This document shows, piece after piece, positions 4,921 through 57,306 of a stretch of 64,000 nt of DNA (its first letter is position 1; each line of letters starts with the position of its first letter). Origin of the DNA: Spirochaetota bacterium (GTDB taxonomy: Bacteria; Spirochaetota; UBA4802; UB4802); NCBI GenBank assembly GCA_040756435.1, contig JBFLZD010000002.1, forward strand, positions 1 through 64,000. The letters run 5' to 3'. Both the position numbers and the translations under genes were made by a program. The notes beneath the pieces were generated by a model. That model had not been told where the DNA came from, made no database searches, and saw nothing but the letters and a program-made list of their open reading frames with translations.

Positions 4921-4947
4921 TTAAGATCTCTGGTTTCTTTTAAATAA

Positions 4948-40211: not shown

Positions 40212-40223
40212 GGTTCACACCTT

Positions 40224-42173
40224 TCATGTTTTTTGAAATACTGCATATTCTTCCTTATTTTTAGACAGTGGGAATGTAATGGTAAAAATTGTGCCCTTCC
40301 CTATCTCACTTTGCACATCAATATTACCATGGTATCGTTTAATAATACCATAGGTTACAGCAAGACCAAGCCCGGTACCCTTCCCCTGTTCCTTTGTTGT
40401 GAAGAACGGATCAAATATTTTATCTAAATGATCCTCCTTGATGCCTATTCCAGTATCCGAAACAATGATGGTGATACTATCGTTATGTAAATTATATTGT
40501 GTCTTCACTGTCAATGTGCCTCCCTGTGGCATTGCATCCGCTGCATTCATTGCTAAGTTATTAATAACCGACTTAAACTGATTTTCATCTATATACATAT
40601 CAGGCACATCAGGATCCAGTTCTTTATTAATGACAATATTGTGGAAGTTAACATGCTTCTCAAGAATCAGAAGAACTTCATTTATAAGAATATTTATATT
40701 AGTCCGTTTGATATCAGGTTTTGTTGAACGAGCAAAATCTAAAATATTACGCACTATATCCCTGCATCGTAATGTTTCCTTAATAATTACTCTTAAGTCT
40801 TCCTCAAAATCAGTATCCTTCAAATCTTCCAGTAACAGTGAGCTGTAGGTAAGAATGGCCGTAAGGGGGTTATTTATTTCATGAGCAATGCCTGATGCAA
40901 GTCTTCCAAGTGAGGCTAACTTTTCAGATTGCAATATCTGGTTTTGCGTTTGTTCTTTCAGCTTTCTATCTCTTTCTTTGATTGCATCAATCATCTGGTT
41001 AAATGTATAACACAAATATCCTATCTCATCTTCGCTTTCTATCTCAATGTGTGCGTCATAGTTTCCATTTATAACCGATTCTGAAGCCTTCACCAAAGTG
41101 CGTACAGGCTGAATTATCATGTTTAAAAGATACAGTGAAATCCCCACAGCAACAATTGCAATTAAAATTGTTATCACCGCAAAATTAACCGTTGAACTTG
41201 TCTTAATCTCATCAAATTTTTTTTCAAGTATCCCAACATAAAGAATACCAATGGGCTTATGATATACATTTAATAGTGGCTTATACGCAGATATATACCA
41301 GTTATTAACCACAAATGCTTTATCCCACCAGACCTTTCCCTGCAAAATGACCTTATTGTATACTTCCTCTGAAAGCAGTGTTCCAATTGCTCGTGAACCA
41401 TCAGGCTTTTTTACATTGGTGCATACTCTGACATCATCCAGGAATATTGTTGAAGTACCAACCTCAAGTCCCCCAATCTTTTCATCTTTGAATACCAGTT
41501 CTTTTATCTGGTCTACTATCCCGTTATAATTATTTAAAATCCTTACGCCATAAATAATACCAATAAAATTATTATTATAAAATATGGGGATAGTTGCTCG
41601 TATTGCCAGTGCATCAACAACCTTTGTCCGTTCAACTTTTCTTGATTTAGGAGTTGGTACAATATCAATAATTACTTTTTTGGCTATTACTTCTCCTTCA
41701 CGCTCAAGATGTTTATGGGTAACAATATCTGTTCCCTCACATGGTGCCTTATTTTTTAATACATACGAAATATGGTTATCATCGGAAACATCATCACCAA
41801 ATGAATAATTATTTGCTCGGGCAATCACCTTCCCATGAGCATCCGTAATATTGACAATATCAATTCCCAATTCCTTCTGCACTTCTTTGCATTTATTTAT
41901 TAATACCTGCCGGTTATTATGCATAATTGCCAATTGAATATATTCTAACAGAGCAATATGCTTGAGCATCTTGCTTTTAAGAGCAACTCTGCTATTATAA
42001 ATAAAATCAGCTGTGTCTAAATCCTTCAGTACAGTATCAAATGCCTGCCCAACAACATGTTTTTCAATTGTCCGTATGCCAACAAAGGTTGATGCAATTC
42101 CTGATAAAAGCACAATGGAAAGTATGCTAATAAATAATTTAAACCGTATCTGTGTGGCAAATCGCTTTTTCAT
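40224..42173 (-). CDS. Sensor histidine kinase with periplasmic Cache domain
   Basis: The 649-residue protein has a first membrane helix (about 13-33), a large periplasmic domain (about 35-330, Cache-like with repeated strand-rich segments), and a second helix near 335-355. A HAMP domain (IIQPVRTLVKASESVINGNY) is followed by HisKA with His near residue 430 in GIAHEINNPLTAIL. The HATPase domain has N-box NLAMNAADAM, G1 DTGIGI and G2 GKGTGLGL. It should sense a small ligand or redox cue and pass phosphate to the adjacent receiver (39822-40211). The trigger is not visible. Confidence 0.93.
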   Translation of the reverse strand: MKKRFATQIRFKLFISILSIVLLSGIASTFVGIRTIEKHVVGQAFDTVLKDLDTADFIYNSRVALKSKMLKHIALLEYIQLAIMHNNRQVLINKCKEVQKELGIDIVNITDAHGKVIARANNYSFGDDVSDDNHISYVLKNKAPCEGTDIVTHKHLEREGEVIAKKVIIDIVPTPKSRKVERTKVVDALAIRATIPIFYNNNFIGIIYGVRILNNYNGIVDQIKELVFKDEKIGGLEVGTSTIFLDDVRVCTNVKKPDGSRAIGTLLSEEVYNKVILQGKVWWDKAFVVNNWYISAYKPLLNVYHKPIGILYVGILEKKFDEIKTSSTVNFAVITILIAIVAVGISLYLLNMIIQPVRTLVKASESVINGNYDAHIEIESEDEIGYLCYTFNQMIDAIKERDRKLKEQTQNQILQSEKLASLGRLASGIAHEINNPLTAILTYSSLLLEDLKDTDFEEDLRVIIKETLRCRDIVRNILDFARSTKPDIKRTNINILINEVLLILEKHVNFHNIVINKELDPDVPDMYIDENQFKSVINNLAMNAADAMPQGGTLTVKTQYNLHNDSITIIVSDTGIGIKEDHLDKIFDPFFTTKEQGKGTGLGLAVTYGIIKRYHGNIDVQSEIGKGTIFTITFPLSKNKEEYAVFQKT

Positions 42174-42272
42174 ATTAATATGCTATCATTCATTTAATTC
42201 TATTTAATATAATAAATCATATTGCACATATTTTGCAACCTTTTTATTGATACGTAAGTAAAAATAGAAAAT

Positions 42273-42303
42273 AGCCGGAACATCAGATCCTGACATTCCG
42301 GCT
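42273..42303 (-). terminator. Rho-independent terminator of the hydrogenase operon
   Basis: The perfect hairpin AGCCGGAA...TTCCGGCT has an inner TCAG/CTGA extension. On the minus strand it is followed by ATTTTCTATTTTT, a moderately T-rich tail. It lies about 50 bases beyond the response-regulator stop (42354), at the end of the operon running down from 52713. Confidence 0.7.
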
Positions 42304-42353
42304 TTGCGATTGTAAACAGGTTGTTGTGATACTATATGCACATCACGGTAAAC

Positions 42354-42755
42354 TCATACATATTTTTTGATTTTATCCAGCAACTCATCTATGCGTACCG
42401 GTTTTGTCAAAAAATCATTAATGCCGGGTAGAAATGATTGTTCTTCATTCAGCGAAAATCGTGAGTTGGTTACCTGATTAATTGCAGTCAGCATGATTAT
42501 AGGCACATTTTTTACGTCTTTGTATTTTGAATCCTCCCTGTTGCTTCGTATCTGATATGATATCTCAAAGCCTGCAGTATCAGTCTCCATCATGACGTCT
42601 AAAATCATAAGATCAGGATGATACGATAGTAACTTTTTTAAGCCTTCAGCGCCACTATAGGCAACTTCCACCTCATATCCATTCATGGTCAAAGCCTGTT
42701 TCAGGCTTTCAACCAGGTCTCTATCGTCATCAACTAATAATATTTTTTTTGCCAT
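42354..42755 (-). CDS. Receiver-only response regulator, last gene of the hydrogenase operon
   Basis: The protein (133 residues from the chosen start) is a receiver domain with phosphoacceptor Asp53 in LMILDVMMETD and the conserved Lys in FLTKPVRIDEL. No output domain is present. I prefer the ATG at 42755 (GGAG nine bases upstream) over one at 42776. It follows the hydrogenase small subunit gene by 24 bases. Its role might be to link hydrogenase activity to a phosphorelay, or it may act as a phosphate sink. Confidence 0.9.
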   Translation of the reverse strand: MAKKILLVDDDRDLVESLKQALTMNGYEVEVAYSGAEGLKKLLSYHPDLMILDVMMETDTAGFEISYQIRSNREDSKYKDVKNVPIIMLTAINQVTNSRFSLNEEQSFLPGINDFLTKPVRIDELLDKIKKYV

Positions 42756-42779
42756 TGTGTATACTCCATCTACCAAATT

Positions 42780-43310
42780 TTAATCATAGAGCAGCTGATA
42801 AATGACATTTCTTTCTTCCCATGCCTTCGTTCGCTGATAGATATCTATTGGGAATTCAATCTGCTTCAATTCAATAGGAGCTGCCTTCTTATCCACCAGA
42901 CCTAACGCTAATGCAACACCATAAATAATTGCTTCAGGCCTTGGAGGACAGCCAGGGATAAAATAATTAACCGGTATTGCCTTATCGGCACCACCTGTCA
43001 CATTATAGGTATCAAACCAGCAACCGCCGCCTGTTGCACATGAACCAATCCCAAATACAAGTTTTGGTGATGGCATTGCATCATATGCTTTTTTTACCAA
43101 AGGAAATGTTGGTCTGGTAACAGCACCTGAAATAAGCATTACATCAGCATGCCTGGGTGATGCAACCAGTTTGATACCAAACCGTTCCACATCATAGTAA
43201 GGAGTTAATACATTTAATATTTCTATATCACACCCATTGCACGCACCAGAATTGCAGTGATACACCCACAATGATTTTGGAAATGCCTTCTTTGCTATTT
43301 TACCCAACAT
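42780..43310 (-). CDS. Group 4 [NiFe]-hydrogenase small subunit (NuoB/HyfI-like)
   Basis: The 176-residue protein is the NuoB/HycG/HyfI homologue that carries the proximal [4Fe-4S] cluster. Ligands are visible as Cys24 and Cys27 in GACNGCD, then GSCATGGGC and PGCPPRPE. It has no Tat signal, as expected for a group 4 hydrogenase facing the cytoplasm. It follows the ferredoxin subunit gene by 2 bases, within the ten-gene operon. Confidence 0.94.
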   Translation of the reverse strand: MLGKIAKKAFPKSLWVYHCNSGACNGCDIEILNVLTPYYDVERFGIKLVASPRHADVMLISGAVTRPTFPLVKKAYDAMPSPKLVFGIGSCATGGGCWFDTYNVTGGADKAIPVNYFIPGCPPRPEAIIYGVALALGLVDKKAAPIELKQIEFPIDIYQRTKAWEERNVIYQLLYD

Positions 43311-43312
43311 GG

Positions 43313-43858
43313 CTATTCTCCTATCTTTTCAGGCCTTTTATAGGTCTTAGTTTTTTCATACAATTCTTTGTCAAATGTTTGTGAAGAAACAGGAATGACT
43401 GCCCTCATCACCAAATTATCATACCGGTATCCTAAATATGACAGTTTATCGATAGCATTCTTTATTTCATGATCAAAACATCTCCCACAGCGCTGACATG
43501 TCAGCATAAATAGTTCCATTGTTTCATTAATGTCACGTTTGTCATCAGTTGCCAGTTCATACTGTGATGTCATTGTTATTGCTTTTTCAGGGCACAGGTC
43601 CGCACAACGCCCACAATAGGTACAACGTGAACCATCATACATCATTACCCTGAGTTCATTGCAAAGATCGCGCACAAGTATGGTACGGGCAGGGCAGTGA
43701 TTAGCACATCCGCCACATCCAATACATTTATGATGATCCCAGTATGGCTGACCCCTGTAATTTTCTGGCACAGGATGCGGTTCAAATGGATAGGGCAATG
43801 TTACCGTACCGGGCTTAGTAACTACAAATAGCTGTTTTATTTTACTTGTAAGCCACAC
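43313..43858 (-). CDS. 4Fe-4S ferredoxin subunit (NuoI/HycF-like)
   Basis: The 181-residue protein has two classical [4Fe-4S] motifs, CIGCGGCANHCP and CTYCGRCADLCP. It also has an extra CQRCGRC segment (about residues 118-124) that may bind a further cluster or zinc. It should pass electrons between the soluble modules and the hydrogenase small subunit. Gaps to its neighbours are 24 bases (upstream) and 2 bases (downstream). Confidence 0.93.
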   Translation of the reverse strand: MWLTSKIKQLFVVTKPGTVTLPYPFEPHPVPENYRGQPYWDHHKCIGCGGCANHCPARTILVRDLCNELRVMMYDGSRCTYCGRCADLCPEKAITMTSQYELATDDKRDINETMELFMLTCQRCGRCFDHEIKNAIDKLSYLGYRYDNLVMRAVIPVSSQTFDKELYEKTKTYKRPEKIGE

Positions 43859-43882: not shown

Positions 43883-44782
43883 TTATATTCCATAAACACT
43901 CAATGCAATGGTACATAATGATATGACAATTAACACTGCATAGTATTTCACTGCCTGGTCAATGCGTAACCGTGGGTTGGTGGATCCCAGTAACGCAATC
44001 AGCACAAAAATCACTGCAACTGCTAAAAGCTGCAAAATTAGGTCAGCAACAAAAATCCCCGTATAGAGAAAAGGCATAAATACCGTTACAAAAAGCACCG
44101 CATAGAACATCTGCTTTAACATCATTGAATATTTAAATAGTGCATAGTTGGGACCGCTGTATTCAATAAACGGGCCCTCCAGTATTTCAACTTCAGCTTC
44201 AGAAATATCAAATGGTTGACGGGCAACAAATGCCTGCAATGCCATAAGATATACTACAAGCATAAGCACCACCGACCATGAATAGCCAGTAGAAAGAATG
44301 CTAAACATGCTGGCATCGATAGCCAGGCTTTTCATCCTTACTGCACCCAGTATAAAAGTCATGGCCAGTATTGGTTCCACCATAATCATGGTTATCATCT
44401 CACGGCTTGCACCAATCATTGCATATGCATTCTTGCTTGATAATGCGCCCAACAATATAGAAATACCTGCTAATGTCAAAAGATATACGATAGTGATGAC
44501 ATCAGCATACTGTGTGAGCATATTAGGCTTGAATCCAATAGGAACTATCGTAACCACTGCTGTTACTGCTGCAAAGGCCATCATTGGTGCCAGCTTGAAT
44601 GCCCAGTTATCACTTACTAAATTATTCTTACCCAAAAGTTTAAGCAAATCCAGGTACGGCTGATAGATAGGTGGGCCCTGCCGTGACTGCACTTTTGCAG
44701 TCAGTTTTCGAATTATACCTTCATATAAGGGTGCTAACCCCAAAAACACTACAATATTGAGTACTATCATGAGAATATCCAT
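43883..44782 (-). CDS. Membrane subunit NuoH/HycD/EchB-like
   Basis: The 299-residue polytopic protein has about eight hydrophobic segments. It contains the family motif GLAPLYEGIIRKLTAKVQSR then GPPIYQPYLDLLKLLGK in the first loop, the conserved SREMITMIMVEP, and RQPFDISEAEVEILEGPFIE. It links the hydrogenase peripheral arm to the membrane and takes part in ion translocation. It fits between the large subunit (12 bases) and the ferredoxin gene. Confidence 0.94.
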   Translation of the reverse strand: MDILMIVLNIVVFLGLAPLYEGIIRKLTAKVQSRQGPPIYQPYLDLLKLLGKNNLVSDNWAFKLAPMMAFAAVTAVVTIVPIGFKPNMLTQYADVITIVYLLTLAGISILLGALSSKNAYAMIGASREMITMIMVEPILAMTFILGAVRMKSLAIDASMFSILSTGYSWSVVLMLVVYLMALQAFVARQPFDISEAEVEILEGPFIEYSGPNYALFKYSMMLKQMFYAVLFVTVFMPFLYTGIFVADLILQLLAVAVIFVLIALLGSTNPRLRIDQAVKYYAVLIVISLCTIALSVYGI

Positions 44783-44794: not shown

Positions 44795-46468
44795 TTATAC
44801 TTTTTTGCTTCGTGACAGACGTTCAAGCTCTTCATTGTTAAGTATTGATTGTCTGCCTGTCTTTACGTCAACCAGTGCCATCCTGTCAGTACATGAGAAA
44901 CACGGGTCTATGCTACCAATGATTATTGGTGCATCGGCTAACTGATTATTCAGTAACATCAACGGTACGCCCTGTAAGTTGGGATACGTGGGGGCACGTA
45001 CTCGCCATCGGTCTGCTCTGTTCTCTTCACCAGTAATAAGGTAATGAACGACTTCCCCACGTGGTGCTTCAACAGCAGATATTGAATGAACCAGTGGCTT
45101 AATGGGCTCATCAAATTCATATAACAATGGTTCATCAACAGGCATGTCACGTAACACTTGCCGTATAATCTTTATTGATTCAAATGTTTCAAGGATACGT
45201 ACCAGCACCGTTCCCCATACATCGCAGGTATCAACAACCGGCACATCAAATTGCACTGCATCGTATGCTGCATAGGGATGGTCACGTCGTGTATCAATAT
45301 CCACACCTCGTGCGCGGGCAACTGGCCCAACCAAACTCCATTTTATTGTATCTTCTTTTGAAACATACCCCACACCCTTAGTTCTTCGGTGGATAGCAGT
45401 ATCGCCAACGATTGCATTTTTTATTGCTACAAGCTCTTTCTCCACCTTATCCATGACATTTAAAATATCTTCCTTGTGTGGCAAAATATCACGGCGTACG
45501 CCACCAATAATTATCATCCCATAGGTTTTGCGGTTGCCAGTAATCTTTTCTGCTAACCACATTACCGGTTCACGAACACGCCATGAATGCATGAACACCG
45601 TATCAAATCCAATAAGGTGGCCAGCAACACCTAACCACAATAGATGGGAATGTACCCTTTCAAGCTCTAACATAAATGTACGAATATACTCTGCCTTCCG
45701 GGAAATCTTTATTCCTGCAGCAAGCTCCACCGATTGTGAATACGAGGTAGCATGAACCGATCCACAGATACCACAAATACGCTCTGCAATAAACGGCACT
45801 TCATTATAGGTTACCTGTGTGGTACACAATTTCTCAATGCCACGATGTGTCATAAAACCACGGTAATCACATCCTTTTATTGTTTCACCATCAACATACA
45901 CTGCAAAATGTGCTGGCTCATGTAATGTGGGATGGAATGGTCCAATAGGAACGGTAGTGCACCCTTCAGGAGCTTTATCTAATTGATATGCCACATCTTC
46001 GGCTGCTGGAGGCATTAAATTCCATGGGACTTCCTTACGCAGTGGATAGATACCTTGTGGCCAGTCATCAGCAAGGATGAGCCGTTTTGGCTTTGGATGT
46101 CCTTCAAACTGCATACCAAGTAAGTCCATGTACTCACGCTCCGACCACCCTGCATTAGGGATGTCCGGTGTAATAGAATCAAGAACTGGTTTGTCAGCAG
46201 GAACTTTTGTCCTTAAACAACAGAAGATGTTGTCTTTATCAAAACTGAAAGTATGTACTAACCCCAATGTATTATCACGGGCTATATTATCATATCCTAT
46301 ACTCACCATATAACGGGCGCCCATTGCAATGACTGCATTACATATAGCCCGTATATTCTTTTTATCCACATCAACAAACAACCGTGTTTCAAGTGGTGTT
46401 TCAAAGCCCTTGACAGCGCTTTTAAACTTTTCTTTCAAATCTTTTTTTACTTGGTCTATCGATGGCAT
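44795..46468 (-). CDS. [NiFe]-hydrogenase large subunit, NuoC-NuoD fusion (HycE/HyfG-like)
   Basis: The 557-residue protein joins an N-terminal NuoC-like domain (~1-150) to a NuoD-like catalytic domain (~170-557), as in E. coli HycE/HyfG. All four Ni ligands are present: Cys232 and Cys235 in RICGICGSVHA, and Cys523 and Cys526 in DPCFSCTDR. It is therefore a real H2-active subunit, unlike complex I NuoD or Ehr proteins, which lack them. The chain continues about 30 residues after the second CxxC motif (after the usual DPCxxC...R end), so C-terminal processing is not obvious from the sequence, although a maturation protease is encoded in the operon. Confidence 0.96.
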   Translation of the reverse strand: MPSIDQVKKDLKEKFKSAVKGFETPLETRLFVDVDKKNIRAICNAVIAMGARYMVSIGYDNIARDNTLGLVHTFSFDKDNIFCCLRTKVPADKPVLDSITPDIPNAGWSEREYMDLLGMQFEGHPKPKRLILADDWPQGIYPLRKEVPWNLMPPAAEDVAYQLDKAPEGCTTVPIGPFHPTLHEPAHFAVYVDGETIKGCDYRGFMTHRGIEKLCTTQVTYNEVPFIAERICGICGSVHATSYSQSVELAAGIKISRKAEYIRTFMLELERVHSHLLWLGVAGHLIGFDTVFMHSWRVREPVMWLAEKITGNRKTYGMIIIGGVRRDILPHKEDILNVMDKVEKELVAIKNAIVGDTAIHRRTKGVGYVSKEDTIKWSLVGPVARARGVDIDTRRDHPYAAYDAVQFDVPVVDTCDVWGTVLVRILETFESIKIIRQVLRDMPVDEPLLYEFDEPIKPLVHSISAVEAPRGEVVHYLITGEENRADRWRVRAPTYPNLQGVPLMLLNNQLADAPIIIGSIDPCFSCTDRMALVDVKTGRQSILNNEELERLSRSKKV

Positions 46469-46496: not shown

Positions 46497-48356
46497 TTAT
46501 TTCACATTACCACCTGTCCACCATAGCATGGACTTTAATGCTGCAAACATGTGTCTGTCCTTATATCTGTTATTATTATTAAGGTCCTGATACCCACACA
46601 ACCATGTTGGCATAACTTTTTCCTGAGAACCCGCACTCTTTTTCACACTATACGCAACTATAAATCCAATAATAACTATTACGATCACCACAAGTGGAAC
46701 AGCAATAGCATTTGCATACTGCATGCCAGGAACATTTATTGTTACACCCATAGCAGATGTAAACACAGCATTGTGTGCCGATAGCTCATTGAATGAAGTC
46801 TGCACTATGGAACCAGTTGAGAACTTAAAAATATTCATTATTGTTTCATAATAAATGAAAGGAACTACCCCCTGAACTATGCAAAGCAGCGCCAGAATGA
46901 CCTTAGGCACAAGCATCTTCCAGGTTACTTCATGAGGTTTGTGTTCAACATTCCATTCTACACCGGCTGAAGCAAATGACATCCCAAAAAATTTTACATA
47001 ACATGCCAGTGTCAATGCGCTGGTAAACAGGGCAATGATGCCAAAGAGGGCAAGGAAGAAAACCTGGCTGCCGCCAAGTAGTGTAGCAGAGATTATTGTC
47101 CACTTACTTGCAAACCCACTGAAAGGAGGAACGCCTGCTATAGACAGTGAAGCAATTCCTGCAATCACTGCGCTGACAGGCATGAATGTAAGCAAACCAC
47201 CTAATTTATTAAGATCCTTTGTACCTGTTTCATATACTATACTGCCTGCGGTAAGAAAGAGTAGTCCTTTAAAGATAGCATGGTTTAATACATGATACAA
47301 TATTCCAATAATGACCAGAAACGACAGCATCTGTACAAACATATTACTGCTGTGGTACATGTACAGGCCAGCTCCAATAGCCAGAACAATGTATCCAATC
47401 TGGCCAATGGAGCTGTAAGCAAGCAGGCGTTTAGCATCGCTCTGCTTTAAAGACTGGGAGGTGCCAATAAATAACGTCACTACACCAAACGTCGCAATTA
47501 TACTTCCCCATATTAAAGGATTAACAGTATGACCTTCATGTGGAATCATCCAGAAGAATGTTCTAACTATGCCATAAATACCCGTTTTAATCATGACACC
47601 ACTCAACAGTGCACTCACCGGTGAAGGAGCAATAGAGTGCGCGTCAGGCAACCATAACTGCCCAAACGGGAATACGCCAGCTTTAAAGCTGAAACCAAGC
47701 AAAAGCAGGGCATACACCACCGGAATCATTCCTCCAGTAGCGCCAAGTTTTTGCGTTAATGTATGAATTGAATCACCCATAACCGAACCACTGATAAGGA
47801 ATGCACCAACAACTATAAAAAGCCATGCCAATTCCATAAGGATTAAATATTTATTTGCATTGCGCACATTCTGCTTTTCTTTATATTCAAATCGAATCAG
47901 AAAATATGATGCTATTGTCATAAGCTGCCATGCTACTGTGAATCCAATACTCAAATCATCAACGGTTACTATGCCAATCATACCCAGAATGAACAGTGGG
48001 AAGTTTATGTAATAGGGTTTAAGTGAGTAGTCCTTATAATGTTCCATATAATCAATAGAATACAGTGCGCTCATTACTGCCATAAAGGAAATAATGGCAA
48101 TGAAGAATCCTGAAAACGCATCTATAAGAAAATAGACTGGCACAGTACCAAAATATATTGCCTGTGTTTCTGCTGCCTTTTGTACAAAGATTGCCACATA
48201 TGCAATATACAACAATAATCCTGCTGCAATTGCCACTGCAATCGTGTTTATCCAGCCTGCTAATTTTCTTTTTGAAGCTAAAAGCGGTACAATGATACTT
48301 GCACCAAGCAATATAGCAAAAGCCTGTAATAACATTCCATAAAGATCAATGTTCAT
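46497..48356 (-). CDS. Proton-conducting membrane subunit (HyfB/HycC/MrpD-like)
   Basis: The 619-residue polytopic protein belongs to the NuoL/NuoN/MrpA/MrpD antiporter family. Key segments are FKAGVFPFGQLWLPDAHSIA (Lys and Asp of the ion path), SPVSALLSGVMIKTGIYGI, and LNHAIFKGLLFLTAGS. It is the single NuoL-type subunit of the complex and should move H+ or Na+. I choose ATG 48356 (AGGAGT seven bases upstream); a GTG at 48362 is a possible alternative. It overlaps the maturation protease gene by 11 bases. Confidence 0.93.
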   Translation of the reverse strand: MNIDLYGMLLQAFAILLGASIIVPLLASKRKLAGWINTIAVAIAAGLLLYIAYVAIFVQKAAETQAIYFGTVPVYFLIDAFSGFFIAIISFMAVMSALYSIDYMEHYKDYSLKPYYINFPLFILGMIGIVTVDDLSIGFTVAWQLMTIASYFLIRFEYKEKQNVRNANKYLILMELAWLFIVVGAFLISGSVMGDSIHTLTQKLGATGGMIPVVYALLLLGFSFKAGVFPFGQLWLPDAHSIAPSPVSALLSGVMIKTGIYGIVRTFFWMIPHEGHTVNPLIWGSIIATFGVVTLFIGTSQSLKQSDAKRLLAYSSIGQIGYIVLAIGAGLYMYHSSNMFVQMLSFLVIIGILYHVLNHAIFKGLLFLTAGSIVYETGTKDLNKLGGLLTFMPVSAVIAGIASLSIAGVPPFSGFASKWTIISATLLGGSQVFFLALFGIIALFTSALTLACYVKFFGMSFASAGVEWNVEHKPHEVTWKMLVPKVILALLCIVQGVVPFIYYETIMNIFKFSTGSIVQTSFNELSAHNAVFTSAMGVTINVPGMQYANAIAVPLVVIVIVIIGFIVAYSVKKSAGSQEKVMPTWLCGYQDLNNNNRYKDRHMFAALKSMLWWTGGNVK

Positions 48357-48849
48357 ACACACACTCCTTTTGGTTGCTCATAATTGAGGATTGAACCATA
48401 CTAACTATTGAATCAACTTTATCCAGTATTATGGGCGATAGTCCCTTTCCAAAATCATTATGCTTGATAACTATCCCAAGCATGTATACATCTTTACCAG
48501 ATGCTTCCAGTATTTTACATGACATCCGTAATGCCAATTTATGCGTTGATACATCTAATCCCGTTTCAACAAAATCACTGAGTTTTCCAAAAACAACCGT
48601 GCCTTCTTCTGCGTCAGCTTCTATAGCATCAATGATCAACACATTTTTACAATTTGACTGGGCAATCGCAAACACATAACTTTCAATGACATCTTCTACA
48701 TTAAATATGACCACATGAGACTGCACAACTTTAGCTGCCAGAGTATCAACAATGTACAGCCCTACTGCATCATCACCTCTATAGTAATTGCCTACTCCAA
48801 CAATGCAGGTTGTATCCTTAAAAATATTTTCCAGCGTCGCCAACCTCAT
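48346..48849 (-). CDS. Hydrogenase maturation protease (M52 family)
   Basis: The 167-residue protein has the signature VGVGNYYRGDDAVGLY (about residues 17-32), with the Asp that binds Ni in precursor large subunits, and the central VLIIDAIEAD. M52 enzymes cleave the C-terminus of the large subunit after Ni insertion. It overlaps the neighbouring HyfB-like gene by 11 bases and the HyhG-like gene by 4, so it is embedded in the operon. Confidence 0.94.
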   Translation of the reverse strand: MRLATLENIFKDTTCIVGVGNYYRGDDAVGLYIVDTLAAKVVQSHVVIFNVEDVIESYVFAIAQSNCKNVLIIDAIEADAEEGTVVFGKLSDFVETGLDVSTHKLALRMSCKILEASGKDVYMLGIVIKHNDFGKGLSPIILDKVDSIVSMVQSSIMSNQKECVYEH

Positions 48850-49679
48850 ATCTGCTCACCTAAGGTTTTAATCTGCCTGTAAGTATATACTGGGCCATCA
48901 GTGCACACCAGGGTTCTCCCGATGGCACAGTGCTGACACTTTCCCACGCCGCACTTCATATGCCTCTCTAACGTTGAGATTATCATGTCATCCTTAATTC
49001 CACGCTGCATAAGTTCTTTTATAACAGCATTAAACATCACCGGTGGGCCACACACAAATGCCACGGTATTTTCTACAGGTATCTCTACCTTATCAAACAG
49101 TGTTGTGATAATACCCACGTTGCCTTTCCATTCAGGCGTGCCATTATCAACTGTAATAAATGTTTCAAACCCTTCAATTTTCTGCCACTGTTCTAACATA
49201 TACTGATACATTAAATCCTGTGGTGAACGTGATCCATATAAAAGCAGTATACGACCAAAATCATTACGGTGCTGCAATACATGGACTATTGATGACCGTA
49301 AAGGAATAAGTCCAATACCACCAGCAACATAGATAACATTTTTTCCTTTTATTTCTTCAAATGGGAACCCATTGCCAAATGGTCCACGTATTCCCACTTT
49401 ATCACCAACCTGAAGATCATGTAACGCATTGGTTACCTTACCTATTCGCCGCACAGTTATATGAAAACGGTCATTTTCAGGGCTGGGTGGAAGCGATACT
49501 GCAAATTCACCTGCACCAAATACCGTACACATAATAAACTGACCTGATTTAAACGTAAAATTGCCATCAATTTCCTTATTATCAAACCTCAGATAAAAGG
49601 TTTTTACATCAACAATCTCATCTTTAATTTCTTCAATTGTGGCAATTTCTGGGACTGTTACTATCTTCTGTTCGCTCAT
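48846..49679 (-). CDS. FAD/NAD(P)-binding [2Fe-2S] reductase (HyhG/AsrB-like)
   Basis: The protein (277 residues from the chosen start) has an FAD-binding barrel (EFAVSLPPSPENDRFHITVR), an NAD(P)-binding domain (YVAGGIGLIPLRS, VCGPPVMFNAV), and a C-terminal [2Fe-2S] motif, CGVGKCQHCAIG...VC. This matches the gamma subunit of sulfhydrogenases and related reductases. It should connect NAD(P)H with the Fe-S chain of HyhB. Which pyridine nucleotide is used is not visible. ATG 49679 has AGGTG upstream; a GTG at 49688 is an alternative. Confidence 0.93.
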   Translation of the reverse strand: MSEQKIVTVPEIATIEEIKDEIVDVKTFYLRFDNKEIDGNFTFKSGQFIMCTVFGAGEFAVSLPPSPENDRFHITVRRIGKVTNALHDLQVGDKVGIRGPFGNGFPFEEIKGKNVIYVAGGIGLIPLRSSIVHVLQHRNDFGRILLLYGSRSPQDLMYQYMLEQWQKIEGFETFITVDNGTPEWKGNVGIITTLFDKVEIPVENTVAFVCGPPVMFNAVIKELMQRGIKDDMIISTLERHMKCGVGKCQHCAIGRTLVCTDGPVYTYRQIKTLGEQI

Positions 49680-49688
49680 AGTTATCAC

Positions 49689-50741
49689 CTATTCATGAAT
49701 TTCTCTTCGGATATATGTAACCACATTGGGTAACCCTATATCGCCAGGACATACCCATGCGCAGCGCCCGCATCCAACACATCCTGGCCGCAGGTATTTC
49801 TTTGACTGTGAGTATGACAGTTTACAGAAAAATCGCTTGTTTCTTCGGTCTTCTATTGGTTTCCGTGGATTATGACCTCCTGCCATTCTGGAATATCCTT
49901 CGTATGAACATGAATCCCATGTTCGCAAGCGCTCAGTATTCCCTGCTATAGTATTGGCGTCATTTATGTTAAAACAGGTACAGGTGGGACACACATACGA
50001 ACATGCACCACACTCAATACACTGGTTTCCAATATACTCCCATACTTCTTCTTTGATGAATCCTGTTGTTACACGGTTCATCACCCGTGATACCCATGCC
50101 TTTGACTCAGTTGCAATATCCTCAAACATGGTGATCGATTTTTCTACAAGCTTCTGTTTTTGCGTTACATGTTCTTGTGTGGCTTTGGGGAAGTTGAATG
50201 ATTCAATAAATGCCTTGCCTTTTTCACTGCCAACTTCAAGCAAGTAACTATCGCCCAAATCCGTAAGATTTAAATCATACCCTTCCTGTGCAGCAGGACC
50301 GCTGTCAGTACATACACAAAAACACTGCTTGAACGGAACAACACAGGTATTGGCTACTATGAACATGCGGCTTCGGTGATGGCGATAGACCTCATCAACA
50401 AATTCTTGACCTAAGAAAAACCTATCAATACACTGTAAGCCCGTTAAATCACATGAACGCAATCCAAACAGTGCCTTTGGCACATCATCAAAGACCATTG
50501 CGATGTCCGCCTTCTTCGCATTTTTATCATATTTATACTGCATGATTGTTTCTAAATGAGGAAACACCACATGCTTTGGTGGATTGGCAGGGATAGGTGC
50601 ATTCAGATCAATGTTGTCTGCACTTACTTTATCAAAGAAACACTGCCCAAATGCCTCATCTAAATAGGGTCCATACAACGTATACTTTTCTTCTAAGGCC
50701 TTTGCAATTTTTTTTACATCATTTTTTTTAATCAGATACAT
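49689..50741 (-). CDS. Dicluster 4Fe-4S electron-transfer protein (HyhB/AsrA-like)
   Basis: The protein (350 residues from the chosen start) resembles the beta subunit of sulfhydrogenases and anaerobic sulfite reductase A. The N-terminal domain has ALFGLRSCDLTGLQCIDRF. Two cluster motifs lie in the C-terminal half, CIECGACSYVCPTCTC and CVGCGRCAWVCPGD. It should shuttle electrons between the HyhG-like flavoprotein and the rest of the complex. ATG 50741 (AAGGTG upstream) starts one base after the molybdopterin subunit stop; an upstream alternative would overlap that gene by about 60 bases. Confidence 0.93.
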   Translation of the reverse strand: MYLIKKNDVKKIAKALEEKYTLYGPYLDEAFGQCFFDKVSADNIDLNAPIPANPPKHVVFPHLETIMQYKYDKNAKKADIAMVFDDVPKALFGLRSCDLTGLQCIDRFFLGQEFVDEVYRHHRSRMFIVANTCVVPFKQCFCVCTDSGPAAQEGYDLNLTDLGDSYLLEVGSEKGKAFIESFNFPKATQEHVTQKQKLVEKSITMFEDIATESKAWVSRVMNRVTTGFIKEEVWEYIGNQCIECGACSYVCPTCTCFNINDANTIAGNTERLRTWDSCSYEGYSRMAGGHNPRKPIEDRRNKRFFCKLSYSQSKKYLRPGCVGCGRCAWVCPGDIGLPNVVTYIRREIHE

Positions 50742-50742
50742 A

Positions 50743-52713
50743 TCACACCTTCTCAATTCGTACTGGGATAGTTGCTTCTTCGCCCTGTGACACAATGTCA
50801 CTATATGCTAATAAAAATGATGCAATCCCCTCTCTGATAAAATAGGGGACATACGCTGTGCCAGGTGCCACATCATCTGAAATCATAACCATTGCTTTCA
50901 TGCTTGCTTTTTCGGCTACAACCTTTACCGGCCAGCGGTCACGCACTCCTATCTGCTTTGCATCTTCAGGTGCTATGGCCACATACCCATCTGGATACAA
51001 CAGCAACGTGGCATTATATTCACGCAGTGGAATAAACGTCTTATGCATGATATTGTTCTGATGCCAGTAATGCTGTGCTTTACCCAGCATAAGTAGATAC
51101 GGATATTCCTGTGTTGCCTGCACAGCTGCATAGGGCTTGTGTGGGAGCACAAATGAAACTTTTTCAGGCACACAGTATTTTGTACCATCATGATTTTTTT
51201 TGGTGCACGGCCACTGCACCCCATGTTTTTTGGAAAGCAATGTATAGCTTATTCCTTCATAAGCAGGAGTAAGGGAAGCTATCTCATCCATTACATCTGA
51301 TGCACTCTTATAATTAAATGGAATGCTCTTTGCCTCTGCAATTGCATCTATAAGCTTCCACATTGGCATCACATCAAATGCAGGAGCGCACTTCTGGGAT
51401 GCAAGCTGAACACGTCGCTCAGTATTGGTAAATGTGCCATCAGTTTCAATATATGTTGTGATGGGCAATACAACATGAGCAAAATCTACAACCTTATTGG
51501 TAAATGCCCCAATATAAGCAACAAAAGGCAATGACTTCAAACGGTCTGCATATTTGACAATGCCATCATCATGATCAACAATCACCAGAGCTTTGAGTGG
51601 TGATGAGCTATCGGACAGAAGTTGTTCAACGGTCTTCCCTTTAAATGTAGGTAATTCCTGTCCCCATTTTTTTTCAAATTTCTTTTTACTGGTTGCATCA
51701 TCAATGCTCTGGTAACCTGTCAGTAAATCCGGAGCACATCCCATATCAAAGCTCCCCTGTAAATTGTTTATACCAGCAATAGGATTTACTCCACAACCTT
51801 CTTTGCCAATCTTGCCTGCAAGCGCAAACAGGTTATAAATTGATGCAACAGTATCATAGCTTAATCCTGAAATACCTGAGGAAAAAAATACCGCAGCACT
51901 TTTTGCCTTAATCAGCCGCTCTGCTACAAAAGCTACCTCAGCTGGCAATACCCCTGTTTCCTTTTCTATTGAATCAAACGGTACAGTTGCTAAATACTTT
52001 TTATATTCTTCATAATGTGCCGATTTTGTATCTCCCCACTGTTGTTTATCTATATAGTACGCAATTGCATCAAAAACCATCCGCATTGTTCCAGGCTTAC
52101 AATTAATAAACTTTTTGGAAAGCTTTGCAATCTTTGTCATGCGGCTGTCGATAGTAATTAGCAGCGATCCACTCCGTGCAGCATAATGCAACTCACTACC
52201 AATGATAGGATTCTGAGTGGTTATATCCATCCCTGCTACAATAAGCACTTCAGCTTTTCGTATGTCCTCAAGCGATCCCAACATACCTGCAAATCCTGTG
52301 CCGTTATACAAAACATCTAAGCTGTTACGATGACCTGATTCTGCTTGAAGGCTTATGTTGTTTGTTTTAAAAACTAAACGGGCCAATTTCATCAGTGCAA
52401 AATTGTCCTCATTGGATGAACGTGGCGAGGCATAAAATGCAATCTCTTCAGGCTTATACAGCGATAATGCCGAAACAAGCTTGGCAATAGCATCTTTATA
52501 ACTAACCTGGCCACTATCTTTAACATACGGCCTGATAATCCGTTCCTGTGTACTCAATAACTCATGGATATTCCATCCTCGTACACATAACCTGCCCTTA
52601 CTTACTGGATGTACCCGCGATGGGAAAACTCCCTGTACAGATGTGCCATCTACTTTGAGATAGTGGCCACATCCTGTTCCACAAAAGGTGCATACACCTG
52701 GCATATAACTCAT
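50743..52713 (-). CDS. Formate dehydrogenase alpha-like molybdopterin oxidoreductase lacking catalytic residues
   Basis: The 656-residue protein has the FdhA/FdhF layout: [4Fe-4S] ligands Cys8, Cys11, Cys15 and Cys43, then the molybdopterin-binding domains and a C-terminal MGD-binding domain with VAPGTAYVPYF. In an ungapped alignment to E. coli FdhF from memory, TNNVDCCARVUHG falls on TNNISLQAESGHR. The catalytic Sec/Cys is Gly127 (GGT codon, 52333-52335) while the next His is kept. In VNPIAGINNLQGSFDMG the catalytic Arg position is Ala313. It should not oxidise formate in the usual way. It may bind a cofactor structurally, like NuoG, or another substrate. First gene of the operon; GAGG upstream. 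Confidence 0.88.
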   Translation of the reverse strand: MSYMPGVCTFCGTGCGHYLKVDGTSVQGVFPSRVHPVSKGRLCVRGWNIHELLSTQERIIRPYVKDSGQVSYKDAIAKLVSALSLYKPEEIAFYASPRSSNEDNFALMKLARLVFKTNNISLQAESGHRNSLDVLYNGTGFAGMLGSLEDIRKAEVLIVAGMDITTQNPIIGSELHYAARSGSLLITIDSRMTKIAKLSKKFINCKPGTMRMVFDAIAYYIDKQQWGDTKSAHYEEYKKYLATVPFDSIEKETGVLPAEVAFVAERLIKAKSAAVFFSSGISGLSYDTVASIYNLFALAGKIGKEGCGVNPIAGINNLQGSFDMGCAPDLLTGYQSIDDATSKKKFEKKWGQELPTFKGKTVEQLLSDSSSPLKALVIVDHDDGIVKYADRLKSLPFVAYIGAFTNKVVDFAHVVLPITTYIETDGTFTNTERRVQLASQKCAPAFDVMPMWKLIDAIAEAKSIPFNYKSASDVMDEIASLTPAYEGISYTLLSKKHGVQWPCTKKNHDGTKYCVPEKVSFVLPHKPYAAVQATQEYPYLLMLGKAQHYWHQNNIMHKTFIPLREYNATLLLYPDGYVAIAPEDAKQIGVRDRWPVKVVAEKASMKAMVMISDDVAPGTAYVPYFIREGIASFLLAYSDIVSQGEEATIPVRIEKV

Positions 52714-52911: not shown

Positions 52912-55764
52912 TCATTCAGTCCGATTTTGTTTTACCCACTCTATTGCATATTGCAAAAGTTCCTGTGATGATTCTACGTGTAGTTTCATCTTAATCTTTT
53001 CTCGTACATTTTCAACAGTTTTAACACTAATATGTAATTTTTGAGCAATGTGCTTGTTGCCCAGACCATGCCCTATTAACTGAAATATCTCAAATTCACG
53101 ATTTGTAAGCGCTTCCACCGGACTCTCTATTTTTCCCTTTTCTGATAAGGATTGCACCATCTGTTCCTTCATTTCAGTAGAAAGATACACATCCCCCTTT
53201 AACACCGTATAGATGGCCTGTATAATCTTATCCGGTGCTTCCTGCTTCATGAGATACCCACGCGCACCAGCTTTAATAGCTCGCTCTGCATATAACTTTT
53301 CATCATACATGGAAAGCACAAGTGCTGGCAGTTTAGGGAAACGCTGTTTCAACGCTTTAACCAGTTCAATGCCACTTGTCCCGTTTAATGAAATATCCAC
53401 AATAATGCAATCAGGAACTTTACGGTTAACTACATCTATTGCTTCATCCGCTGATGTAGCCTGGCCTATTACCTCTAGATTTTTCTGCGTATTAATAAGC
53501 TGTTGCAAACCCTGTCGCACAATAGGATGGTCATCAACAATAACAACCGTATATTTTTTACCTGTCTTAGGTTTTTCTATAATGGACTTCTGAGGCCCTT
53601 TCTGAATAATACATTGCACCAGCGTTCCGCCACTTTTGTTATTCTGCACCTGAAACGACGCATTAATAATCCATGCTCTGTACTGCATGATATGCATTCC
53701 CATTCCTTTTGCCAGATCAACTTCATCCGGGATGCCTTTGCCATCATCCATAATCTTTACATAATAATATGCATTATCTTCAGATATTGTGATAGCAATG
53801 TTTTTTGGACTGGCATGTTTCACAGCATTGTTTAATGCTTCACGGATAATGTAATACACATGTACTGTATCGATTGCTTCGTCAATGTTACTTGTAATAT
53901 TCCATTCTAAGATGGCTTTGATAGCAAAGTTTTTATTAATATCAGCAATCATTTCCTGCAACGATGAATACAATCCTTTGTTGGTTAAATCCACCGGGCT
54001 TAAACCTCGTGCAATGAGCCGCGTCTGCTCAATAGCCTGATGTACCATGTTCTGTATCTCAACAATTTCATCAGCTTCCTGAGGATAATCATTTTTTATC
54101 TTAAGCCTGAGCATTTCTGTTTTGAATATTAACCCTGCCAGATGCTGACCCAATCCATCATGTAAATCGCGTGCTATGCGGTTTCGTTCTTCCAAGTTTG
54201 CCTGAAGTATCTTTCTTTCAAGCTGCTTTTTTTCAGTTATATCAATTCCTATAAACATGAAATAATCAAATTCATTATTGCTGTATACCGGCCGTGCATG
54301 CCACTGAACAATTTTTTCTTCACCACTCTTTGTATTGATAGGGCTTTCAAAAATGCGTGTTGTTCTGGTCCTCTTCATTGTTGACAACTGATTACGGAAT
54401 GACTTTTGCCCAACATCTGGAATAAAAATATCACAGCATGTTTTACCCAGTACCTGACTTAGCAAGTACCCTGTAGCCTGTAACATGGCTTTATTGCAGG
54501 TGAGAATGTTCCCTTCCTCATTTAACGTGATAAAATATGCAGGAGCAATATCCTCTAAATTCTGGATAATATCCAGGCCTTTTTTTAGTTTTTCCTTTGT
54601 GCGCTTCACATCGGTGAGATCTCGCGCAATAATTGAACAGCCAATAACACTATCGTGCTCATCAAGAAGCGGGGAGATAGTCATTGATAGATTGTGTATC
54701 GTACCCTTTTTATCCAGCCCTTCTGTTTCATAATGATCTATCGCCTCATTGTTTTTAATTAGTAGTAGCAATTGGTCAAATTCATCAGGCCTGTATGGGG
54801 GCGATAGTATACTGATATCACATCCTACCACCTCATCAAGTGCATAGCCAAAAATATGCTGCGCAGCTTTGTTCCAGCTAGCAATTTTGCCATCAAGTGT
54901 AATACCAATTATTGCATCATCAGAGTTGTCCAGTACAATTGATAATTGATTGCGCACATGTTCAATGTGTTTTCGCTCAGTGATATCTCGGGCAACACTC
55001 AGTACAGCATTTTCATTTAAATAATAAATGATAGTGCTCACAATCTCCACAGGGATGGTGTTGCCGTTTCTATCAACAAATGAGGTTTCATAGGAATCAG
55101 TATTTTCATCAATTGAACGCAAATAGTGATGTATCCTGTCACTATCCCCTTCTGCCGTTAACTGTTGTAGTGTCATTAGCATCATGGCATCATATGAAAA
55201 ACCTAAACGTTCACAGGTAGTATTATTTACTTCCAATATTTTCCCATCACGTTTATGAATAATAACCATATCCGAAATGCTATTAAACAAAGATTTGTAG
55301 CGCATCTGCGACGCCAAAAGTTCACTGGTGCGCTGTAATACAATATCCTCAAGCAGGTCTTTTTCTTTGCGCAGCATATCCTCGGCATGTTTTATGCGCA
55401 TCATTGCATTAATCTGCGCAATGAGTTCAGCCTGATCAACAGGCTTGGTTAAAAATGCATCGGCCCCTAATTTTAAACCTTTGACTTTGCTCTGGGTATC
55501 AGTATGGATAGCGGTAAGAAATATAACAGGGATATGGCGCGTCTTAGGATTGTTTTTTAAAATCTGGCATACTTCATAGCCATCCATCTCGGGCATCTTA
55601 ATATCAAGTATAATAACATCAGGATTGTGCTCTTCTGCTTTTTCTATACCTTCCTTTCCGGATTGTGCAGTAACAACCTCACAGTTGGCAATCAGGTTCT
55701 TCAGAAGTGCGGTAATACTTACCAGATTATCTTTTTTATCATCTATGACTAAAATTGTGTTCAT
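52912..55764 (-). CDS. REC-PAS-PAS-PAS-histidine kinase-REC-LuxR HTH fusion protein
   Basis: This protein (950 residues from the chosen start) fuses a whole phosphorelay. Receiver 1 (about 1-120, Asp54 in VIILDIKMPEMDG) is followed by three PAS domains (~160-525). The NarX-type HisKA_3 has His near 545 in RNRIARDLHDGLGQHLAGL, and the HATPase follows (~640-735). Receiver 2 (~750-865, with CIIVDISLNGTSG) and a LuxR HTH (~885-945, LTNREFEIFQLIGHGLGNK then HIAQKLHISVKTVENVREK) form the output. It lies next to the hydrogenase operon, but regulation of it is only inferred. Its ATG at 55764 overlaps the stop of the upstream kinase gene (ATGA). Confidence 0.92.
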   Translation of the reverse strand: MNTILVIDDKKDNLVSITALLKNLIANCEVVTAQSGKEGIEKAEEHNPDVIILDIKMPEMDGYEVCQILKNNPKTRHIPVIFLTAIHTDTQSKVKGLKLGADAFLTKPVDQAELIAQINAMMRIKHAEDMLRKEKDLLEDIVLQRTSELLASQMRYKSLFNSISDMVIIHKRDGKILEVNNTTCERLGFSYDAMMLMTLQQLTAEGDSDRIHHYLRSIDENTDSYETSFVDRNGNTIPVEIVSTIIYYLNENAVLSVARDITERKHIEHVRNQLSIVLDNSDDAIIGITLDGKIASWNKAAQHIFGYALDEVVGCDISILSPPYRPDEFDQLLLLIKNNEAIDHYETEGLDKKGTIHNLSMTISPLLDEHDSVIGCSIIARDLTDVKRTKEKLKKGLDIIQNLEDIAPAYFITLNEEGNILTCNKAMLQATGYLLSQVLGKTCCDIFIPDVGQKSFRNQLSTMKRTRTTRIFESPINTKSGEEKIVQWHARPVYSNNEFDYFMFIGIDITEKKQLERKILQANLEERNRIARDLHDGLGQHLAGLIFKTEMLRLKIKNDYPQEADEIVEIQNMVHQAIEQTRLIARGLSPVDLTNKGLYSSLQEMIADINKNFAIKAILEWNITSNIDEAIDTVHVYYIIREALNNAVKHASPKNIAITISEDNAYYYVKIMDDGKGIPDEVDLAKGMGMHIMQYRAWIINASFQVQNNKSGGTLVQCIIQKGPQKSIIEKPKTGKKYTVVIVDDHPIVRQGLQQLINTQKNLEVIGQATSADEAIDVVNRKVPDCIIVDISLNGTSGIELVKALKQRFPKLPALVLSMYDEKLYAERAIKAGARGYLMKQEAPDKIIQAIYTVLKGDVYLSTEMKEQMVQSLSEKGKIESPVEALTNREFEIFQLIGHGLGNKHIAQKLHISVKTVENVREKIKMKLHVESSQELLQYAIEWVKQNRTE

Positions 55765-56816
55765 TCCGTAACCCAACGCTGAACTTTTAACACAAATTCT
55801 TCAATGGCAAACGGTTTTTGAATAAAATCATCACAGCCGGATGCCATGATGATTCCTCTTTCATCTTTTAATGAAGAAGCTGATACAATAATCACCGGTA
55901 TATGGCCAGTTTGTTGATTCCCTTTTAGTTGCTTGACCACCTCCAACCCATACACATCAGGTAGTGATAAATCAAGCAATATACATGCTGGTTTTATATC
56001 CTGGGCAAGTTTCAATCCTTCATGACCGCTATGTGTTTCAACTATGTCATACAATTTGGACAAAAGAGCCTTAACCACCACTATGCTATCAGGATCATCA
56101 TCAATAACAAGAATTGTTTTACGTTGCCGCTTGGTTACTTCATGTTCTTTTTGTAACGGTAGCCGCACGGTAAACGTTGACCCCTTGCCAAGCTGGCTTT
56201 CAACAGCTATGGTACCCCCTAATAGTGTAACAAGCCTGGCAACGATGGTAAGTCCAAGTCCGGTGCCAGGATATTTTGACGATAGTGACCCCGAAGCCCT
56301 GGTAAATCCGGTAAACAACGTATCTAAATACTCACTGCGGATTCCAATGCCGGTATCAGCAATACTGACTACACCGTGTCCATCTTTTTTATATGCCGAT
56401 ATTGTTATACTTCCTTCTTCAGTGAATTTAACCGCATTATCAATGAGATTTTCACATACCTGATACAGGCGAGACTCATCAGTAGCCAGTATAATATCAT
56501 CGCAGTGCATATGCAATTGCAATCCCTTTTTGCGGATGACTCCTTCATAGCGTTCACACACATCATGTAACACGGAAGCTATCGATACATTTGTTACAGA
56601 CAATTGTATACCACTATCAATTTCAAACACTTCAATAAGATCATTAATAAGGGCCAGAAGTTTTTGACCATTACGTTCAATAATTTCTAAATACTCTTTT
56701 TCTTCAAGGGTAAGGCGGCTATCAGCCTGCATAAGCAAAACTTTTGATAGCGTTAAAATTGAGTTTAACGGTGATTTCAATTCATGGCTTATGCTGTGTA
56801 AAAACTCTTTATTCAT
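55761..56816 (-). CDS. Histidine kinase-receiver protein without sensor domain
   Basis: The 351-residue protein opens directly with the phosphoacceptor motif (His11 in SISHELKSPLNSI). The HATPase domain follows (NLIDNAVKF, DTGIGI, GTGLGL, ending ~225), then a receiver domain (~230-345, ACILLDLSLPD). Having no sensor region, it needs input from a partner. The upstream 165-residue protein overlaps it by eight bases and the downstream fusion protein by four, so the three are a tight operon. Confidence 0.92.
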   Translation of the reverse strand: MNKEFLHSISHELKSPLNSILTLSKVLLMQADSRLTLEEKEYLEIIERNGQKLLALINDLIEVFEIDSGIQLSVTNVSIASVLHDVCERYEGVIRKKGLQLHMHCDDIILATDESRLYQVCENLIDNAVKFTEEGSITISAYKKDGHGVVSIADTGIGIRSEYLDTLFTGFTRASGSLSSKYPGTGLGLTIVARLVTLLGGTIAVESQLGKGSTFTVRLPLQKEHEVTKRQRKTILVIDDDPDSIVVVKALLSKLYDIVETHSGHEGLKLAQDIKPACILLDLSLPDVYGLEVVKQLKGNQQTGHIPVIIVSASSLKDERGIIMASGCDDFIQKPFAIEEFVLKVQRWVTE

Positions 56817-57306
56817 GAGCCTTTTGCGCTACATTCATTTTTAATAGATACGCAATATTAAAAAGATTGGTAATGCCCCCTACAAAGCGTTCCTTGATCA
56901 TGCCTTTAGGCAAACTATCAACTTTAAGGTGATATTCCTCTAATCGGTTCTGTATTGTGGCAACAATGTTTGATAGCTCATCATGGGGTAATTTTTGCTT
57001 TAAATACTCCATTTGCTCATTGACAGCCTGGGCACTGAAAAACATCTTTCTAAAAGCATCTTTAATATCATGAGGAAAACCTATAATCAATTTTTCTACT
57101 AAACAGATCCTTGCCAACTGATATCCCAGCTGAACATCCTGGCAGCTCCTATTTGAAAAGCAATCAGGAAAACGCTCCAAATATGCGCTGCCTAATGCTA
57201 TCATCTCTTCAATATCAAAATCAAAGTTGCCATCACAGGCAATGATATCGTTTCTAAATTCGTCTAAATTCTTTGATTTGATAAAATACTCAGCTGGCTT
57301 TGCCAT
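56809..57306 (-). CDS. Hypothetical helical protein, first gene of the phosphorelay operon
   Basis: The 165-residue protein is all helical by appearance and has no signal peptide or membrane segment. I do not recognise it. Cysteines in ERFPDCFSNRSCQDVQ and LARICLVEKL are of note but form no known motif. Since the following kinase lacks a sensor, this protein is a candidate input module, or a sigma/anti-sigma-like partner. A GCGATAGTT repeat lies 28 bases upstream of the ATG. Confidence 0.6.
   Translation of the reverse strand: MAKPAEYFIKSKNLDEFRNDIIACDGNFDFDIEEMIALGSAYLERFPDCFSNRSCQDVQLGYQLARICLVEKLIIGFPHDIKDAFRKMFFSAQAVNEQMEYLKQKLPHDELSNIVATIQNRLEEYHLKVDSLPKGMIKERFVGGITNLFNIAYLLKMNVAQKAHE

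Follow-up and report, generated by a model that had tools for sequence, protein, structure and literature searches.

A formate dehydrogenase-like protein encoded with group 4 [NiFe] hydrogenases has lost both catalytic residues and probably persists as an iron-sulfur bridge

A hydrogenase operon of a Spirochaetota bacterium encodes a protein that looks like the catalytic subunit of a formate dehydrogenase (FDH), and the locus raises the question of what such a protein does if it cannot oxidize formate. A preliminary description of the window (the whole stretch of 64,000 nucleotides of contig JBFLZD010000002.1 that was analysed) had proposed that this FdhA-type protein keeps its fold motifs and [4Fe-4S] ligands but lacks both catalytic residues, and had considered either a structural, NuoG-like subunit or an enzyme with a different substrate. 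Here, the protein and its homologs are named FDHX. The gene is located as follows:

50743..52713 (-): FDHX, an FDH-fold subunit without the catalytic Sec/Cys and Arg; open and complete reading frame, 656 amino acids

Pfam profiles identified three domains of the FDH/DMSO-reductase superfamily in FDHX (Molybdop_Fe4S4, Molybdopterin and Molydop_binding). An AlphaFold model of the protein (pLDDT 84.4, pTM 0.87) matches FDH structures end to end; in a Foldseek search FDHs rank top, with an E-value of 1e-55 and a match that spans the whole length. The assignment to the FdhA type, with its fold motifs, is thus borne out. The closest solved relatives are FDHs of the F420, HDCR and FHL types, and identity to active FDHs is about 27-35% over almost the full length, whereas similarity to NuoG is weaker. 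The top NCBIfam model is that of the FDH alpha subunit (TIGR01591); its score of 399 bits is below the equivalog cut-off of 666, therefore by NCBI's rule FDHX is not to be named an FDH. Among the best matches listed from a plasmid collection there were just ordinary FDHs, at about 31% identity or lower, and an Rfam scan of the FDHX region gave zero matches. Elsewhere in the window, an open reading frame at 26460-27056 (-) resembles a REP-associated Y1-type transposase, as judged by eye from its translation.

In alignments with solved FDHs the Sec/Cys-His motif corresponds to Gly127-His128 of FDHX and the catalytic arginine (Arg333 of E. coli FdhF) to Ala313. Aligning FDHX with 12 active FDHs, E. 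coli FdhF among them, confirmed both columns. For FDHs of the Sec type, the reading frames downstream of the TGA codon begin aligning exactly at FDHX residue 128. The key residues are:

52333..52335 (-): Gly127, at the FdhF Sec/Cys140 position by alignment; codon GGT, read from the sequence
51775..51777 (-): Ala313, at the FdhF Arg333 position by alignment; codon GCT, read from the sequence
52585..52692 (-): [4Fe-4S] ligands Cys8, Cys11, Cys15 and Cys43, invariant in 44/44 FDHX sequences

Pairwise, multiple and post-TGA-frame alignments agree on Gly127, which leaves no selenocysteine, and none of them places a Cys or Sec codon at the catalytic position; the alignments with solved FDHs and with the 12 active FDHs that include FdhF agree likewise on Ala313. 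FDHX shares with FDHs the fold and the four cysteine ligands, as had been described. The absence of the catalytic pair extends to the homologs, which we sampled as 44 FDHX sequences from Spirochaetota and Acidobacteriota/Aminicenantes and compared with 15 active FDHs. The column of the Cys/Sec metal ligand is occupied by Gly in 41 sequences and by Trp in three, and that of the catalytic Arg by Thr, Ala, Val, Ser or Pro in all 44, with no Arg in any of them. Loss of both residues is confirmed as a property of the whole FDHX family, and a sequencing error behind Gly127 and Ala313 is excluded because the catalytic residues are missing in every homolog. The neighboring His that the preliminary description regarded as kept is present in the window protein (His128) and in 33 of the 44 homologs, but not in all of them. 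The genome from which the window derives also encodes an FDH with an in-frame TGA (L059) and has MoaC, MoeA and MoaA, therefore the losses in FDHX do not stem from an organism devoid of Moco. With the Cys/Sec and the Arg gone throughout the family and further pocket columns changed, oxidation of formate via the known mechanism is not credible, as had been anticipated.

Downstream of FDHX the operon continues with the following genes:

49689..50750 (-): HydB/AsrA-like Fe-S subunit of the sulfhydrogenase beta type (Fer4_22, NF040829/NF040833; nearest solved relative 9nez chain B, sulfhydrogenase 1 beta, E 5e-40)
48846..49688 (-): HydG/AsrB-like FAD- and NAD(P)-binding subunit with a [2Fe-2S] domain, of the sulfhydrogenase gamma type (by its domains; nearest solved relative 9nez chain C, sulfhydrogenase I gamma, E 2e-53)
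48346..48849 (-): HycI-type hydrogenase maturation protease (profile matches)
46497..48362 (-): HyfB/HycC-like antiporter-type membrane subunit (profile matches)
44795..46468 (-): group 4 [NiFe] hydrogenase large subunit of the NuoC-NuoD/HycE type (motifs RICGICG and DPCFSC; nearest solved relative E. coli FHL HycE, 7z0s, E 1.5e-121)
43883..44782 (-): HycD/NuoH-like membrane anchor (profile matches)
43313..43858 (-): HycF/NuoI-like polyferredoxin (best NCBIfam model, formate hydrogenlyase Fe-S subunit)
42780..43310 (-): HycG/NuoB-like hydrogenase small subunit (profile matches)

The order FDHX, HydB, HydG, HycI, HyfB-like, HycE, HycD, HycF, HycG, in which FDHX comes first, is kept in Spirochaetota and Acidobacteriota/Aminicenantes on all contigs of sufficient length; in a few Acidobacteriota loci no separate HycI gene was recognized. 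Two kinds of machinery are encoded side by side. HydB and HydG make up a sulfhydrogenase-type NAD(P)H module, with a Fer4_22 beta subunit and a FAD/NAD gamma subunit that carries the [2Fe-2S] domain, and the remaining genes specify a group 4 [NiFe] hydrogenase, with two CxxC Ni-ligand pairs, NuoB-, NuoI- and NuoH-like and antiporter-like subunits, and the maturation protease. The Ni-ligand motifs RICGICG and DPC(F/I/Y)SC are intact in the large subunits checked; in three loci, whose reading frames are over-long, the searched segment does not include the first of them. Profile annotation detected no HycB-type gene in the operon, which thus has neither the HycB nor the active FDH of a formate hydrogenlyase. 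An orthologous large subunit (at least 68% identity) was found in 30 of the 59 relatives searched, and FDHX or a piece of it is present in all 30, although a few drafts (e.g. G022, G025, G028) give just a fragment or a match at the edge of a contig.

Several further features of the locus were observed. The start of HydB, with its ATG, shares 8 bases (window 50743-50750) with the end of FDHX, and the HydG/HycI and HycI/HyfB-like genes overlap as well, suggesting translational coupling. Genes for two-component histidine kinases and response regulators flank the operon (window 39822-42776 and 52912-57306), and their relatives recur beside FDHX in many related genomes. The HycF-like subunit carries an extra C-terminal CxxCxxC motif (TCQRCGRCF), which is perhaps related to the cysteine quartet that lies near FdhF in E. 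coli HycF (PMC9474812).

Beyond the two catalytic positions, FDHX differs from active FDHs at these sites:

52579..52581 (-): Arg45, at the FdhF Lys44 position; Arg in 44/44 FDHX, Lys in 15/15 active FDHs
51568..51573 (-): His381-Asp382, by alignment a shortened remnant of the GE(N/D)P cofactor motif (FdhF 402-405)
51013..51033 (-): FDHX-specific insertion I-P-x-R-E-Y-N, residues 561-567; P, R, E, Y and N invariant in 44/44

FDHX has exchanged residues at columns where active FDHs vary hardly or not at all (K44R, N176D, H181N, Q335I/L/V, E403H/R and D429G), and several of these columns presumably line the cofactor in FdhF. The K44R change alone cuts the activity of E. coli FDH-H to 7.1% and makes the enzyme bind its cofactor less tightly (PMC12176258). 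In all 44 FDHX sequences the GE(N/D)P motif (G-E-N/D-P) is gone or shortened, and at this motif and the switched columns they lack the invariant pocket residues of an FDH; Asn317 and His128 are largely or fully kept. In place of the old residues there is a different pattern of conservation. Fifteen columns are conserved in FDHX and in active FDHs alike but with differing residues, and FDHX has many invariants of its own, among them a W-H-x-N motif (Trp550-His551-x-Asn553). Highly conserved new residues occupy old pocket columns (R45, D163, N168, H381-D382, Y400 and G402), and residues 561-566 of the insertion are missing from all 15 active FDHs. Around the W-H-x-N motif the FDHX model has low pLDDT (52-61), although the motif is conserved.

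Such a pattern could mean that the emptied pocket has been refitted for another ligand (a nucleotide, a metabolite or a cofactor), which would make FDHX a sensor or a new catalytic subunit. The family-only invariants, the W-H-x-N and P-x-R-E-Y-N motifs and the replaced pocket residues are in keeping with this proposal, and a conserved motif of low pLDDT is expected of a loop that becomes ordered by a ligand or a partner. However, side chains that merely fill the cavity, or a new interface with HydB or HycF, would fit too, and no ligand can be named; we regard a refitted pocket as unlikely. The opposite suggestion, that FDHX is a decaying relic without function, may be prompted by the fact that it is among the faster-evolving subunits of the operon. 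This is already contradicted by the dN/dS of 0.065-0.10 between FDHX and three congeners, which corresponds to purifying selection, by the maintained reading frame and by the presence of the gene wherever the hydrogenase was found. Purifying selection and family-specific invariants together indicate that FDHX is not drifting, and a relic is scarcely conceivable.

Two genomes, G169 and G181 (97% and 98% complete), bear directly on the presence of the cofactor. Both have FDHX, and searches of both gave no match to MoaC, MoeA or the C-terminal domain of MoaA. G169 contains no PF00384 protein besides FDHX, and in G181 a NuoG of 509 amino acids is the only other one. Of the 29 other relatives in the same order, 27 gave a MoaC match and 24 a MoeA match; a single search thus has a miss rate of about 7-17%, and chance is an unlikely explanation for two genomes that both lack all three matches. 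Both genomes keep the whole operon. The two FDHX copies share 71% identity with one another and 52-53% with the window protein, and they fall inside the FDHX clade. The operons lie on contigs of 181 and 209 kb with a GC content (0.58 and 0.56) near that of their flanks, and contamination is unlikely; since the flanking genes are not syntenic, horizontal acquisition is likely. Judging from these draft genomes, FDHX of this lineage very probably works without a pterin cofactor. Extended to the window protein by homology, this reading suggests that FDHX has most likely lost its Mo/W-bis(pyranopterin) cofactor. The AlphaFold models may be weakly indicative of the same: in a control model of an active FDH (L139) the cofactor loops are poorly ordered, with pLDDT of 37-68 around the Arg loop against 77-93 in FDHX, whose ordered loops would fit a pocket that needs no cofactor, the two models differing in alignment depth (13 versus 30).

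MoaE was dropped as a marker of Moco synthesis because it is absent from many genomes that have MoaC. Two further genomes without MoaC, MoeA or MoaA matches, G296 and G297, were set aside as Moco-free examples, since exported molybdoenzyme-like proteins are present in them and incompleteness is possible. The molybdoenzyme-like proteins concerned are L082 and L089 (G297) and L084 (G296), some with Tat-type signals as judged by eye; either these genomes are incomplete or something odd is going on in them.

The main competing proposal is that FDHX still binds Mo/W-bisPGD and converts another substrate without a protein ligand to the metal, feeding electrons to the hydrogenase. Enzymes of the arsenite oxidase type function without a protein ligand to Mo, hence loss of the Cys/Sec alone does not exclude catalysis, and group 4 hydrogenases frequently bear a substrate module. 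Additionally, the fold is fully retained, as largely are His128 and Asn317, and most FDHX genomes make Moco, as seen from MoaC and MoeA matches. On the other hand, the cofactor motif is lost and several pocket columns are switched in all FDHX, Moco synthesis went unmatched in G169 and G181, and the operon already possesses an NAD(P)H input of its own in HydB-HydG. We therefore consider a molybdenum-dependent FDHX quite unlikely. Between the two readings initially offered, the absence of GE(N/D)P from all 44 sequences, the two genomes without Moco matches and the co-occurrence with the hydrogenase in 30/30 genomes favor the structural, NuoG-like subunit over the different substrate.

NuoG-like does not mean derived from NuoG. 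In a tree of 52 sequences FDHX forms one clade (support 100) nested in active FDHs; its sister, also with support 100, is a diverged degenerate form in G540, and the two lie near the active FDHs L139 (G088) and L027. NuoG falls outside and shares no ancestry with FDHX that excludes active FDHs, with the proviso that NuoG branches are long and the tree is a quick one, so that the exact distance between FDHX and NuoG is uncertain. This placement indicates that FDHX descends from FDHs independently of NuoG and resembles it in fate. FDHX could instead be a fragment of complex I, a NuoG without its N-terminal ferredoxin domain, and E. coli NuoG does have K44R, N176D and R333A in common with FDHX in the alignment. 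These shared changes are most simply explained by convergence; both the tree and the higher, nearly full-length identity of FDHX to active FDHs speak against a fragment, which we find very unlikely.

At L139 (G088, 2460-6441), a near relative in the tree, a Cys FDH of the active type precedes HydB- and HydG-like genes, the order seen in FDHX operons. Unlike FDHX, this FDH has the Cys, His, Arg and GENP intact, and no hydrogenase genes of the window type were recognized within the 11 kb examined around it. The enzyme is likely to be NAD(P)-linked and may serve as a model of the FDHX ancestor; in the simplest history, an FDH-HydB-HydG enzyme was first combined with a group 4 hydrogenase, and catalysis by its FDH was lost afterwards. 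The degenerate protein of G540 (L136, 11727-13823) has Arg45, no Cys/Sec, Ala at Arg333 and the R-E-Y of the insertion, and belongs to a diverged version of the whole operon. Another degenerate FDH-like protein, separate from FDHX in the tree, was found in G023 (L141:6783-9533) and G031 (L142:8091-10886); it has a NuoG-type N-terminus, Leu/Val-Asp in place of Cys/Sec-His and a retained Arg333, and adjoins NuoF-like and rnf-like genes.

Taken together, FDHX is probably a former FDH catalytic subunit that has lost catalysis and, most likely, the Mo/W cofactor, and that now serves as an obligatory [4Fe-4S] bridge within a group 4 [NiFe] hydrogenase that is linked to NAD(P)(H) and translocates ions. 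We infer the assembly of this complex, its electron path and its direction from the gene content. NAD(P)H is thermodynamically a poor donor for H2, the reaction being uphill under standard conditions; therefore either an ion gradient would drive H2 release from NAD(P)H, or H2 uptake to NAD(P)H would drive the pump. NAD(P)H and the NiFe site of HycE would exchange electrons by way of HydG (FAD/[2Fe-2S]), HydB, HycF and HycG, and this transfer would be coupled to ion transport through HycD and the HyfB-like subunit. FDHX would fasten the HydB-HydG input module onto the hydrogenase core; in E. coli FHL, FdhF touches HycB and HycF (PMC9474812). Its single cluster may be an electron relay or an off-path structural element like N7 of NuoG, a cluster that takes no part in electron transfer but is required for stability (PMC5123574). 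It would be a bolder step to see here a second, independent complex-I-like NAD(P)H-linked ion pump, in which FDH-HydB-HydG joined a group 4 hydrogenase, the cofactor was lost and the pocket was refitted with a new, strictly conserved ligand site; we hold this to be rather unlikely.

Emptied subunits of the FDH type are already known in NuoG and QrcB. NuoG/Nqo3/NDUFS1 of complex I has an FDH-fold domain that keeps a [4Fe-4S] cluster and has lost Moco, and it belongs to a set with an NADH module and an ion-pumping arm of NuoD, NuoH and antiporter subunits (PMC5123574, PMC9474812), as the FDHX complex would by its genes. FDHX keeps the cysteines for an N7/FS0-type cluster, and its residues together with G169 and G181 suggest that it lacks the cofactor. 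FDHX differs in beginning at the N7-type cluster domain, without the N-terminal multi-cluster [2Fe-2S]/[4Fe-4S] domain, in its partnership with a NiFe hydrogenase that keeps its Ni ligands, in having HydB-HydG instead of NuoEF as input, and in its separate origin in the tree. FdhF of E. coli FHL has the same fold (TM about 0.86) and a group 4 hydrogenase setting; unlike FDHX it has Sec140, Arg333 and Mo(MGD)2, and FHL lacks an NAD(P)H subunit and employs HycB as its linker. QrcB of the menaquinone reductase Qrc is likewise an FDH-like large subunit kept in a respiratory complex, but without bis-MGD and without the Fe-S cluster (PMC10772276) whose ligands FDHX retains. OmeA of Dehalococcoides is FDH-like and part of a hydrogenase-containing complex, yet is predicted to bind bis-MGD (PMC10772276, PMC6258894); both QrcB and OmeA belong to complexes of the NrfD/CISM type. 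A 2019 account of Saganbacteria RX5A records a comparable, unclassifiable gene cluster that combines an enigmatic group 4 hydrogenase with asrA/asrB (HydB/HydG-like) and an FDH-like molybdopterin protein; phylogeny did not identify this protein as an FDH, it was supposed to be an oxidoreductase module, and, unlike the FDHX operon, the cluster is described with Mrp subunits and cooF (PMC6349859). In the open-licence literature searched we found no description of catalytic-residue loss in this hydrogenase-linked family.

FDHX genes are likely to be annotated as FDHs and their operons as formate hydrogenlyases, with the consequence that formate metabolism would be wrongly credited to these uncultured bacteria. 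The origin of the emptied FDH-like domain of complex I is debated, and FDHX looks like an independent case of the same emptying. Because it is found with a hydrogenase whose Ni ligands are intact and close to FDHs whose active sites are intact, the steps of emptying can be traced and tested. Should the reading of a second assembly with a refitted pocket be true, FDHX would represent, in extant bacteria, a counterpart of the event by which complex I acquired its emptied FDH-like subunit.
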